Source of the DNA: an uncultured Verrucomicrobiota bacterium
Lineage (GTDB): Bacteria > Verrucomicrobiota > Verrucomicrobiia > Limisphaerales > UBA9464
Length of the DNA: 64,000 bases
Assembly (NCBI GenBank): GCA_903907995.1
Contig: CAIVQH010000024.1
Location: 1-64,000 of the forward strand
Direction: 5' to 3'
Shown here: piece by piece, positions 39,452 through 57,335 of the stretch
Layout of the letters: the number at the start of each line of letters is the position of its first letter
Position numbering within the stretch: the first letter of the stretch is position 1
Made by a program: the position numbers and the translations under genes
The notes under the pieces: model-generated
Seen by the model: the letters and a program-made list of their open reading frames with translations, nothing else
Told to the model about the DNA's origin: nothing
The model's database searches: none

Positions 39452-39730
39452 ATGGCAAAATTCACGGCTGCCGAAATCAAGACCGCGCTATCCACCGTAC
39501 CCGGCTGGTCCAGGCGCAACGGCACCATCCGGCGCACCTTCGAGTTTGTGGATTTCATCGGCGCGATGAAATTCGTGAATGCCGTCGCCAAGGCAGCGGA
39601 GAAAGCCCAGCACCATCCCGACATCGATATCCGCTGGAACAGGGTGACGCTGGTCCTCGTGACCCATGACGAGGGCGGGCTCACGGGGAAGGACTTCGCC
39701 CTGGCGGCAAAGTGCAACCAGTTCGTGTGA
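39452..39730 (+). CDS. phhB: Pterin-4-alpha-carbinolamine dehydratase
   Basis: This 92-aa enzyme dehydrates 4a-hydroxytetrahydrobiopterin after aromatic amino acid hydroxylation. ATG 39452 starts MAKFTAAEIKTAL. The signature FEFVDFIGAMKFVNAVA and the catalytic HHPDIDIRWNRV, split by the family's EKAQ, are present, and GLTGKDFALA ends the domain. Length is normal. No hydroxylase is nearby; small PCD proteins are also used elsewhere, so its partner is unknown. Confidence 0.9.
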   Translation: MAKFTAAEIKTALSTVPGWSRRNGTIRRTFEFVDFIGAMKFVNAVAKAAEKAQHHPDIDIRWNRVTLVLVTHDEGGLTGKDFALAAKCNQFV

Positions 39731-39747
39731 GCGGGCGCGGTTGAGCC

Positions 39748-39921
39748 GGAGCGCGGCTCTGTGAGCCGCAGCAGCCTGCGAACTGACAGGCTCTTTCGGT
39801 TCATCCGCCCGTCTTCGGACTGTAGGCATTGCTGCGGGTCACAGACCCGCGCTCCGCCGGCAGCGAACGCGCCGTACCAGACGGGCCAGCCCGTCGTACC
39901 GTGTCGGGCCAGCGGCCCGAC
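39748..39921. repeat. Palindromic repeat cluster with inverted 26-base arms
   Basis: Arms at 39748-39773 and 39830-39855 are inverted copies differing at only 2 of 26 positions. Each contains a 7-bp hairpin: GCGGCTC-tgt-GAGCCGC in the first, and the equivalent of GCGGGTC-tgt-GACCCGC in the second. The two differences are compensatory and keep the stem. Two more hairpins follow: GACGGGC-ca-GCCCGTC (39880-39895) and GTCGGGCC-agc-GGCCCGAC (39903-39921). The whole set fills the gap between phhB and the uracil-DNA glycosylase. Confidence 0.82.
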
Positions 39922-39976
39922 CTACTTTGAGGAAATGGAGCAGCGAGCTGTCCCTACCCGGTTCTGACTCACCGGC

Positions 39977-41002
39977 TCAGGGCTTGGGCAGGAAGTAGGC
40001 GCGCTGCTTGGCGTTGATCGGCAGGGCGAGCTTTTCCATCACGGCCAGCAGGTCTTCCCACACCTTGCGTTTCTCTGCCGGGGCCTGGTTCCGCAGCAGG
40101 TAAGCGGGGTGGTACGTCGGCATCAGCGGGATGCCCCGGTAGGTCTGCCAGGTGCCGCGCAGCTTCGTGATGCCGATCGTCTTGCCCAGCAGACCCTCCA
40201 CGGCAGTCGCCCCCAGTGCCACCATCGCGGCGGGCTGGATGATGTCGATCTGCCGGTGCAGCCACGGCGTGCAGGTGGCCATCTCATCGGAGGTCGGCTT
40301 GCGGTTGCCGGCGGTCTGGCCCGGCGTATCGGGTCGGCACTTGAGAATGTTGGCGATGTAAACGTCGGCGCGGGTGAGCCCCATCGCGAGGATCATCTTG
40401 GTGAGCAGTTCGCCGGCCTTGCCGACGAAGGGCTCGCCTTGCCGGTCTTCATCCGCCCCCGGAGCCTCGCCGACAAACATCAGCCGCGCGTGGATGTCGC
40501 CGACGCCAAAAACCACGGTCGTCCGCGAGCTGGCGAGGTGCGGGCATTTGATGCAGCTGAGCGCCTGCGTGCGGAGCTCATTCATCGCGGCCTCTTTGGC
40601 GGCGGGTGCCAGCGGCGGCGGCAGGGGCGGTTGGGCGGGAGCAGGAGCAGGGGGTTTGGGCACGGAAGGGCTGGGGAGTTGGGCGGCCTGTCCCCAGCGC
40701 GAGGCGACGGAGGCGGGCAGCGGACGCGGTGTGTAAGGGGTTGGCGAAGTGGACGGCGGCGGCGTGGCCGACGGCACGCCAGGCGTGCCCGCCGGTACGA
40801 AGGCAAACGGCTTCGCCTCAGCCGGTCGAGAGGCCGGAGGCATCGGGGCCGGGGAACGAATGGCGCGGGACGGGACGAATGGACGGGCCGACAGCTCGGC
40901 GAAGGTCGCCGCACTCACCGGCACGAACTCGACGCCATCGGCGCGCAAGGCCTCGCAATGCGCGATCGCGGCATCGAGCAGTTGCACATAGGCGTCGGAC
41001 AC
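39977..41002 (-). CDS. Uracil-DNA glycosylase, family 4 (Fe-S) with a long Pro-rich N-terminus
   Basis: This 341-aa DNA-repair enzyme removes uracil from DNA. The catalytic domain (about residues 150-341) has the first cysteine pair SCIKCPHL, motif 1 GEAPGADEDRQGEPFVG, KCRP, CTPWL and motif 2 MPTYHPAYLLR, as in type-4 thermophile-like enzymes; the four Fe-S cysteines are visible. Residues about 35-150 are a Pro/Ala/Ser-rich linker. The start GTG 41002 (VSDAYVQLLDA) is preferred over ATG 41074, which would lie only 28 bases from the divergent lspA start. Confidence 0.88.
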   Translation of the reverse strand: MSDAYVQLLDAAIAHCEALRADGVEFVPVSAATFAELSARPFVPSRAIRSPAPMPPASRPAEAKPFAFVPAGTPGVPSATPPPSTSPTPYTPRPLPASVASRWGQAAQLPSPSVPKPPAPAPAQPPLPPPLAPAAKEAAMNELRTQALSCIKCPHLASSRTTVVFGVGDIHARLMFVGEAPGADEDRQGEPFVGKAGELLTKMILAMGLTRADVYIANILKCRPDTPGQTAGNRKPTSDEMATCTPWLHRQIDIIQPAAMVALGATAVEGLLGKTIGITKLRGTWQTYRGIPLMPTYHPAYLLRNQAPAEKRKVWEDLLAVMEKLALPINAKQRAYFLPKP

Positions 41003-41102
41003 GGCGGCAGAGTAGAGGGGTGACCCACGGTGTGCGAAGCGCGAAGTAAGGGAGGTCACTTCCGATTTCGACATTCGCGCCCCGGCCCGGCAACTTCCCC
41101 GC

Positions 41103-41630
41103 GTGTCCGCCGTCCGCCAGTTCACCGCCAATCAGCGCATGCTGCTCATCGCCGGGGCCGTTTTTGTCGCCGACCAGCTCACCAAGCTGCTCGTGCTCAC
41201 CCTGTTGGGGCCGCTGGAGGAGCGGGTGGTCATCAGCGGCTTCTTCAAGTTCGTCCACTGGCAGAACACGGGGGCGGCGTTCTCCATGTTCCACCAGAAG
41301 AACAGCATCCTGGCGCTGATTTCCGCCGTGGCGGTCGTGGCATTGTGGGTGTTCCGCCAGCACTTTGAGGCCCGGCGACTGGCTGGCCAGGTCGCGCTGG
41401 GGCTGCTCTTCGGGGGCATCGCCGGAAACCTGCTCGACCGCCTCCTGCCCAGCCGCCAGCACGTGATCGACTTTCTGCGCTTCTATCTCGATTCGCGCGC
41501 CGGCGGGGAAATCGGCTTCCCGGCCTTCAACATCGCCGACTCCGCGATCTGCACGGGCGTGGGCCTGCTCATCCTGCTGTCGTGGATGGCCACCCCGCCG
41601 GCCGCCAACGCCGCCGCCGAGGGAAAATGA
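41103..41630 (+). CDS. lspA: Lipoprotein signal peptidase (signal peptidase II)
   Basis: This 175-aa inner-membrane aspartic protease cleaves signal peptides of diacylglyceryl prolipoproteins. Four transmembrane segments are visible. Motifs are DQLTKLLV, WQNTGAAFSMF, GGIAGNLLDR (catalytic Asp), HVIDFL and FPAFNIADSAI (second catalytic Asp). Start codon is GTG 41103. The stop overlaps miaA (ATGA). The lipoproteins in this window, such as the YHS-like set, would be its substrates. Confidence 0.95.
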   Translation: MSAVRQFTANQRMLLIAGAVFVADQLTKLLVLTLLGPLEERVVISGFFKFVHWQNTGAAFSMFHQKNSILALISAVAVVALWVFRQHFEARRLAGQVALGLLFGGIAGNLLDRLLPSRQHVIDFLRFYLDSRAGGEIGFPAFNIADSAICTGVGLLILLSWMATPPAANAAAEGK

Positions 41631-56909: not shown

Positions 56910-57335
56910 TACCAGTTCCCTGAAAGCACGGCATCTTGGTAGGGAATTCGCGCTGCGATGTCCCCGCCGCCGAGCGCAGCGTCAGGCGACGGAATGAACG
57001 CCTACGACCTCCGCACGCCTCTTCCGCCCCTTCAGCACGGGGACGGGAAGCAGACGGACCGCAGGTCTGTGATCCACAGCGACGCACGAAGCTCGGAGGC
57101 ACAGAGGAAATGGTGATGAACGAAGTCCGGGAGTTGCTGCGGCTCGCAGAGCCGCGGTCCGCACGTCTCTTCCACCCCTTCAGGGCGGGACGGCGCGGCG
57201 CGCCATCCCTTTCAAACGACTGATTCTCATCGGTAAATGCACCCAGGCGCCAACCGCCTCCCCGAAAAACAAACCAGCCCGCTCAGGCGAGCGGGCTGGC
57301 TGGAGAAATCAGGCAGATTTAAGAATGAGCCGAGA
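56910..57335. other. 426-base intergenic region with palindromic repeats
   Basis: No gene can be supported. It contains an inverted pair of 26-base repeats: a diverged copy at 57057-57082 and a clean one at 57135-57160 with the hairpin GCGGCTC-tgc-GAGCCGC. A direct repeat (57011-57042 and 57159-57190, both starting CCGCACG and containing CTTCCGCCCCTTCAG or its variant) surrounds it. The terminator of the pseudopilin is at its end. Copies of the same 26-base family occur at 39748 and 39830. Confidence 0.65.
57264..57299 (-). terminator. Intrinsic terminator of the pseudopilin gene
   Basis: On the minus strand CCAGCCCGCTC and GAGCGGGCTGG form an 11-bp stem with loop GCCT, followed by TTTGTTTTTCG. 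It lies about 37 bases after the stop of the gene at 57336. Confidence 0.88.

Follow-up and report, generated by a model that had tools for sequence, protein, structure and literature searches.

What kind of element is made of two inverted 26-base repeats that differ from each other only at two bases, and why are these two bases partners in a small hairpin? The question arises at positions 39748-39855 of a 64-kb stretch of contig C24 (the window) from an uncultured verrucomicrobial genome (G000, the "own" genome below; 5.11 Mb in 60 contigs, 95.67% complete). We conclude, with a probability of roughly 80%, that the two repeats form a REPIN-like, apparently mobile element that is moved by a RAYT (REP-associated tyrosine transposase, HUH-Y1 type) and that belongs to a small population of such elements.

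The doublet in the window and its copies

The first-pass annotation had described inverted 26-base repeats with paired C-to-G and G-to-C changes. This description was confirmed. The arms (39747-39773 and 39830-39856) are inverted, 27 nt long, 93% complementary, and separated by 56 nt. Read in the same orientation, both follow one plan: the tag GGAG, a C, a 7-bp stem with a 3-nt loop (TGT), and AGCA. Arm 1 is GGAGCGCGGCTCTGTGAGCCGCAGCA and arm 2 is GGAGCGCGGGTCTGTGACCCGCAGCA. They are identical except at arm positions 10 and 18 (39757 and 39765 in arm 1; 39846 and 39838 in arm 2), which pair with each other in the 7-bp hairpin. The doublet and its setting are as follows.

39455-39730, plus strand: upstream gene, pterin-4a-carbinolamine dehydratase (PF01329); its stop is 16 nt before the doublet
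39747-39856, no strand: whole REPIN-like doublet, two inverted GGAG-tagged hairpins and spacer, between convergent genes
39748-39773, plus strand: arm 1, 26 nt, with tag GGAG at 39748-39751 and tail AGCA
39753-39759 and 39763-39769, plus strand: stem of the arm 1 hairpin, loop TGT at 39760-39762; the swapped pair 39757-39765 is C-G
39774-39829, no strand: spacer, 56 nt (53-57 nt in 15/17 copies), divergent in sequence
39830-39855, minus strand: arm 2, the same hairpin on the opposite strand; the swapped pair 39846-39838 is G-C in arm orientation
39903-39925, minus strand: adjoining REP of another family, GTAG-GTCGGGCC-GCT-GGCCCGAC, approximately 50 nt from the doublet
39977-41131, minus strand: downstream convergent gene, uracil-DNA glycosylase superfamily (Pfam family PF03167)
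57056-57160, no strand: second doublet in the window, with more mismatches; arms at 57056-57081 (plus) and 57135-57160 (minus)

We searched the own genome with an arm pattern in which positions 10, 12, 16, and 18 were left free and up to three mismatches were allowed. The window contained three arm matches at this threshold, compared to none in 100 dinucleotide shuffles. The whole genome contained 35, and the reversed-pattern control gave none. Thirty-four of the 35 pair up as 17 inverted doublets. The remaining arm (C32:37625; three mismatches) had no partner among the matches and is outside the 34 analyzed. Fifteen doublets are 105-109 nt long and the other two are 137 and 149 nt. Mean pairwise identity of the own-genome arms was 0.89, with the swap scored as a difference. 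The 15 short spacers were only slightly more similar to each other than shuffled spacers (0.652 versus 0.585), and common ancestry was apparent for some of them (C18, C21, and C54; C60 and C2). The adjoining GTAG REP had three matches in the own genome and 38 in a related genome, G003 (a few overlapping on both strands), and none in five other species of the same genus.

The usual genomic unit is thus an inverted pair of REPs around a short spacer, as in REPINs. There is also a conserved tetranucleotide at the 5' foot of the hairpin: GGAG or a one-base variant is the tag in 33 of 34 own arms, preceded by C in 32 of 34. The tetranucleotide is not the GTAG or GTGG of REPINs, and neither was found immediately 5' of GGAG in any of the 34 arms. 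We call the element a REPIN-like variant because GGAG does not fit GT[A/G]G, the tag by which REPs are defined in the literature.

Covariation in the small hairpin

We found that the two bases of pair 10-18, left free in the search, pair in every own arm. All 34 own arms had a standard pair (17 G-C, 15 C-G, 1 T-G, and 1 G-T), compared to 17.1 expected under independence. The same was true of 283 of 289 non-redundant arms from the loci collected for this count, L211-L242 among them (152.3 expected); the loci from named contigs had been recruited with S at positions 10 and 18, so the recruiting arms cannot show A or T there.

Covariation across the hairpin exceeded both kinds of control. Among 87 distinct arms, 44 cells were changed on both sides of a pair, compared to 12.5 ± 2.5 after shuffling, and no slid control exceeded 7. 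Approximately 96% of cells paired (95.7%, versus 87.2% when shuffled), and the covariation score was 0.238 (0.085 shuffled; at most 0.080 slid). Relatedness among arms inflates the simple shuffles; the slid controls keep this relatedness. Three pairs had changes on both sides in the 87 arms, a count that is not unusual, as 85 of 500 shuffles reached it. The covariation is strong and lies mainly in one pair (10-18), backed by pairs 9-19 and 12-16. Additional compensated states were found: A-T and T-A at pair 10-18 (alongside G-T and T-G), and others at pairs 9-19 and 12-16. Conservation of a hairpin through compensatory changes is a further feature shared with REPINs. The first-pass annotation had attributed the paired changes to selection on structure and proposed gathering the copies and looking for covariation. 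We did so, and the result upholds selection on the small hairpin.

We found that the two arms of a doublet vary independently. Eight of the 17 own doublets have arms that are unlike at both swap positions; in four of these (the window copy, C31a, C54, and C60) no other mismatch separates the arms. The arms were of like type in 9 of 17 doublets (Fisher p = 1.0). Because arm types are independent while pair 10-18 always pairs, these results support the conclusion that the constraint falls on the small hairpin and that the long arm-arm stem is free to break at the swap positions.

Relatives of the doublet and linkage to RAYT genes

The arm is widespread in related bacteria. It was present (at most two mismatches) in 16 of 58 genomes searched, the own genome included, with 1 to 95 matches each. 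The reversed-pattern control gave a single match in all 58 genomes, in G017. Among named genome contigs, at least 112 stretches contained the exact 27-mer. Among the 112 listed, 110 titles name Verrucomicrobia or subgroups (Limisphaerales and Pedosphaera among them); the other two name a "Proteobacteria" and a Formivibrio MAG.

The arrangement of the arms varies among these genomes. Doublets in G055 fall into two length classes, approximately 110 nt and 158-179 nt, and their spacers are visibly more alike than those of the own genome (stretches L092-L110). In MAG casp150-mb.181 the arms abut tag to tag as a 50-nt palindrome (L141 5641-5690, L146 661-710, and 11 further loci), a doublet turned inside out. 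At 11 of these 13 loci one arm has the stem GCGCCTC/GAGGCGC. The palindromes sit in two larger recurring contexts, one of which has outer inverted repeats (L141). A longer relative of the arm, starting with GGAGCGCGGCTGTGTC and ending with CCGCAGCA, flanks RAYTs in G043 and G024 (L243 and L244).

We compared three doublet sites with G003, which gave the best match (77-95% over the flanks used) when seven other genomes of the genus were searched. At the window site, the doublet and the neighboring GTAG REP are absent from G003; the flanks are separated by 240 nt here and by 30 nt there. At the C54 site the doublet is also absent (142 nt between matches versus 15), and an 87% relative of the C54 element is located elsewhere in G003. 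At the C47 site (C26, L273 in G003) there is, by eye, a GGAG doublet of another family with a longer hairpin, resembling the longer arm relative that flanks the RAYTs in G043 and G024. The element was therefore absent from G003 at two of the three sites examined; the junctions are not base-exact, and tens of flanking bases also differ.

We found RAYT genes bordered by arms of the window family. A long RAYT-type gene was present in 4 of the at least 112 stretches, among the matches listed (L160, L169, L199, and L204). In L169 (contig JAQBVM010000194.1), two direct doublets of the window-arm family, identical base for base over their 108 nt, enclose an open RAYT frame. L160 and L204 contain the same RAYT (72% to the RAYT P0002) with window-family arms on both sides, whole doublets in L160 and single arms with one and two mismatches in L204. 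A stop interrupts each of these two genes. L199 has a sister RAYT (57%), flanked on both sides by doublets with a different stem (GGAG-T-GCGACCG-TCC(C)-CGGTCGC). A cognate RAYT flanked by the same REP was thus seen in three relatives (L160, L169, and L204) and was not found in the own genome.

These genes were reached through a profile of three short own-genome RAYTs. In L160 this profile matched a short RAYT, and in L199 it weakly matched the long one. L160 also contains a long RAYT, which was spotted by eye and then searched for across all loci, including L211-L242. Against the NCBIfam model REP_Tyr_transpos, P0002 scored 70.8 bits (below the cut-off of 80) and the L199 protein 81.1 bits (above it). 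P0002 has the motifs NHVH, WA, and YIENNP; L199 has NHVH, WQ, and YIENNP. REPs in frame inside RAYT genes, a trait of subclass 2.4, were also found: a whole doublet between the HUH and Tyr motifs in L251 (G003; 1959-2059), and a single arm before the HUH motif in L160 (595-619) and L204 (3751-3775). None of the three insertions introduces a stop at the point of insertion.

We found that the type of tag follows the RAYT tree. Many of the more distant RAYTs of the order have tagged hairpins nearby, GGAG or GTAG, with differing stems; for some, the hairpin scan found no tagged hairpin nearby. On a tree built from 26 RAYTs, two changes sufficed to explain the tag label, compared to a mean of 6.0-6.1 when shuffled, and shuffles as low occurred in 1 of 500 for GGAG and 0 of 500 for GTAG. 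The forks separating GTAG from GGAG had supports of 88/82 and 94/89 (not starred), and one GTAG locus (L247) falls within the GGAG group. Four fragments (L252, L253, L264, and L265) had been dropped before the tree was built; L258 and L260 were omitted as duplicates of the L294 and L293 loci, and L032 had no P0002 match. No tag group was given to L262, L263, L266, L267, and L293, although at L293 the scan did pick up two GGA-tagged hairpins that differ from the rest. The tags of L243, L244, L246, L251, and L254 were assigned by eye, as the strict 7-bp scan missed them. Eighteen control loci without a RAYT (53,785 bases) contained four GGA-tagged hairpins, in three loci, and no GTAG-tagged ones.

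Short Y1_Tnp genes (PF01797) were considered as the cognate enzyme and rejected. No arm (at most three mismatches) was found at 32 such loci (5 own and 27 of relatives, a subset of the matches; flanks of up to 1.5 kb, less at contig ends). At up to five mismatches, three of the 32 had one arm (L080, L084, and L087), and none of the five own matches had an arm within 1.5 kb on either side.

The sole P0002 match in the own genome is one of its five Y1_Tnp matches and lies inside an SNF2 helicase frame. A GTAG hairpin lies beside this match, which groups with the GTAG RAYTs on the tree. Across the 58 genomes there was no association between presence of the RAYT and presence of the REP: a P0002-like RAYT (E < 1e-40) occurred in 13, and the arm was present in 4 of these 13 and in 12 of the other 45. 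G055, with 95 arm matches, lacked a P0002 match. Two arms accompany its RAYT at L091 (2389-2733), at a distance of approximately 1.8 kb, and we did not find the enzyme serving the 95 arms of this genome. The stem of a REP family may evolve faster than the enzyme, in which case the presence of a RAYT of the clade would not predict any particular stem; alternatively, window-family arms may be acted on by other RAYTs. The own copies may be an orphaned population, or may be served by another RAYT or by one whose gene lies in the unassembled part of the genome.

RAYT (HUH-Y1) domains also occur in frame within housekeeping genes of several genomes (L296-L301, L294/L035, and L292). Alanyl-tRNA synthetase genes with an in-frame RAYT were identified by Pfam and NCBIfam in L296 (G003) and L297 (G055), and by eye in L298 (G039); in L299 (G036) only the C-terminal part is in the same frame. 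An apparent threonyl-tRNA synthetase contains a RAYT, by eye, at the same place in L300 (G043) and L301 (G047; the frame runs off the contig), and an SNF2 helicase contains one at the same place in two genera (L294/L035 in G000 and L292 in G014). The arrangement is intein-like, without known splicing. REPs, rather than RAYTs, have been reported inside tRNA synthetase genes (PMC3733652). We found no report of the RAYT form in the open-access literature searched.

Interpretation and comparison with known systems

We propose the following mechanism. Once single-stranded, for example during replication, each arm would fold into its own hairpin. A RAYT would bind the arm, reading tag and hairpin, and copy or move the doublet to other intergenic sites. 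Elements with a broken hairpin would no longer be copied, and the spacer would drift. Base changes would survive mainly together with a change in the partner because broken hairpins would no longer be copied. The assignment to a RAYT comes from linkage in relatives rather than from the own genome. The first-pass annotation had given two examples, RNA binding and recognition as single-stranded DNA. The RAYT linkage in relatives favors the second, with a transposase as the binding protein, but the single-strand step itself is drawn by analogy from other TnpA-REP enzymes, for which single-strand, strand-specific recognition of tag and hairpin has been described, with the tag helping to choose the cleavage site (PMC8266576). 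We infer likewise that GGAG acts as the guide, that RAYTs of this clade move the element, and that selection acts through transposition.

Our results might also indicate a host-level RNA element, transcribed at gene ends, that terminates transcription or protects mRNA 3' ends, the covariation then reflecting RNA structure. The window copy does lie between convergent genes. When 11 own copies were scored with a naive ORF caller, five had convergent neighbors, six had tandem ones, and none had divergent ones (an ORF of 70 aa or more overlapped the remaining 6 of the 17). Effects of REPs on mRNA stability and termination have been reported in other systems (PMC6006769). Nevertheless, we think this reading unlikely. 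The arms lack the T-run of an intrinsic terminator. The region 39600-40100 had one terminator-like site (0.3 expected), a hairpin at 39773-39792 that, apart from its first base, belongs to the spacer. No match at the doublet attained an Rfam gathering threshold; over the whole window only one tRNA did. (In permissive Rfam searches a miRNA family was matched twice and an sRNA family once, all weakly and far below threshold, and we took these matches as chance.) A role in RNA would also leave the presence/absence differences, the tag, and the RAYT linkage unexplained, although it is compatible with the REPIN-like reading. That the doublet is a MITE of a classical DDE transposon, with arms that are terminal inverted repeats bound as double-stranded DNA, is distinctly improbable. 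The element is short, non-coding, scattered, absent in a relative, and has inverted ends, as would be expected of a MITE. However, there was no sign of target-site duplication: none of the 17 doublets had abutting direct repeats of five or more bases, and five had matches of 3-4 bases. MITE interiors are usually conserved, and the 15 spacers compared above are barely more alike than shuffled ones. The transposase genes found between such arms are HUH-Y1 RAYTs, in a search aimed at RAYT and Y1 types, and binding as a double strand gives no reason for covariation within the hairpin.

The covariation itself bears on two further explanations. The functional structure could be the long arm-arm stem, as a cruciform. 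This stem is the predicted single-strand fold of the window copy (free fold -40.6 kcal/mol, compared to -30.0 for two enforced separate hairpins), and the free fold is the more stable in all 17 doublets, as expected by construction, with the smallest gap (0.7) in C31b. We nonetheless regard a functional cruciform as very improbable: 8 of 17 doublets break the long stem at both swap positions, pair 10-18 is intact in every arm, and the arm types are independent. It is hardly credible that two repeat lineages differ at two pairing sites by neutral coincidence. G-C and C-G do make up most of the variation, and relatedness inflates the simple shuffles, but there are more compensated states, at 10-18, 9-19, and 12-16, and the slid controls, which keep relatedness, gave at most 7 doubly changed cells versus 44.

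Returning to a REPIN-like element moved by a RAYT, we can imagine how its tag arose. We offer it tentatively, at somewhat below even odds, that a Limisphaerales RAYT branch switched its guide from GTAG to GGAG and that enzyme and tag then co-diversified into many families, including that of the window. On this reading the own population would have kept intact arms after losing its own enzyme, so either a RAYT acting in trans or a benefit to the host would be involved. In the GGAG clade, tag and hairpin vary naturally beside the enzyme, providing ready-made pairs for tests of the recognition code. In addition, doublets with two differently compensated arms make it possible to tell selection for the small hairpin apart from selection for the long stem.

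REPINs and their compensatory changes are already known; what departs from print is the GGAG tag. REPs are described as a GT[A/G]G tag plus a palindrome (PMC3686654; PMC2817692), the REP descriptor of a survey of HUH enzymes required GTAG or GTGG (PMC6006769), and the RAYTs studied for REP recognition in PMC8266576 were proteobacterial and GTAG-using. We found no published report of the window's GGAG REP family in the open-access literature searched. Duplication of REPINs by RAYTs is reported to occur at very low rates (PMC8049555).

The closest likeness in arrangement is to the REPINs of Pseudomonas fluorescens SBW25 (PMC3116915), as described there: two inverted REPs, a spacer less conserved than the arms, compensatory changes, alternative folds (long hairpin and "clover"), and linkage to a RAYT. 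The doublets here differ in their verrucomicrobial host group, their GGAG tag, their number (17 versus 430), and in that no cognate RAYT was found in the own genome. Several REPs of fluorescent pseudomonads start with GT[A/G]GGAGC before a short palindrome (PMC3686654), so GGAGC precedes the stem in both systems; there it is preceded by GTAG or GTGG, unlike the arms here, which have a 7-bp stem and a TGT loop. Orthologous RAYTs with differing REPs are also reported in that group (PMC3686654). The enzymes partly resemble TnpA-REP subclass 2.4, or RAYT group 4 (PMC6006769), judged by motifs: NHVH and YIENNP fit the listed NH[IFV]H and YIxNNP, whereas P0002 has WA where WQ is listed (and found in L199). 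The REPs in frame inside some RAYT genes (here L160, L204, and L251) are another likeness; those of subclass 2.4 lie mostly between the HUH and Tyr motifs (PMC6006769). Opitutus terrae, of the same phylum, has GTAG REPs (PMC3733652), likened here by phylum and tag; a REP with that tag adjoins the window doublet, whose own tag is GGAG.
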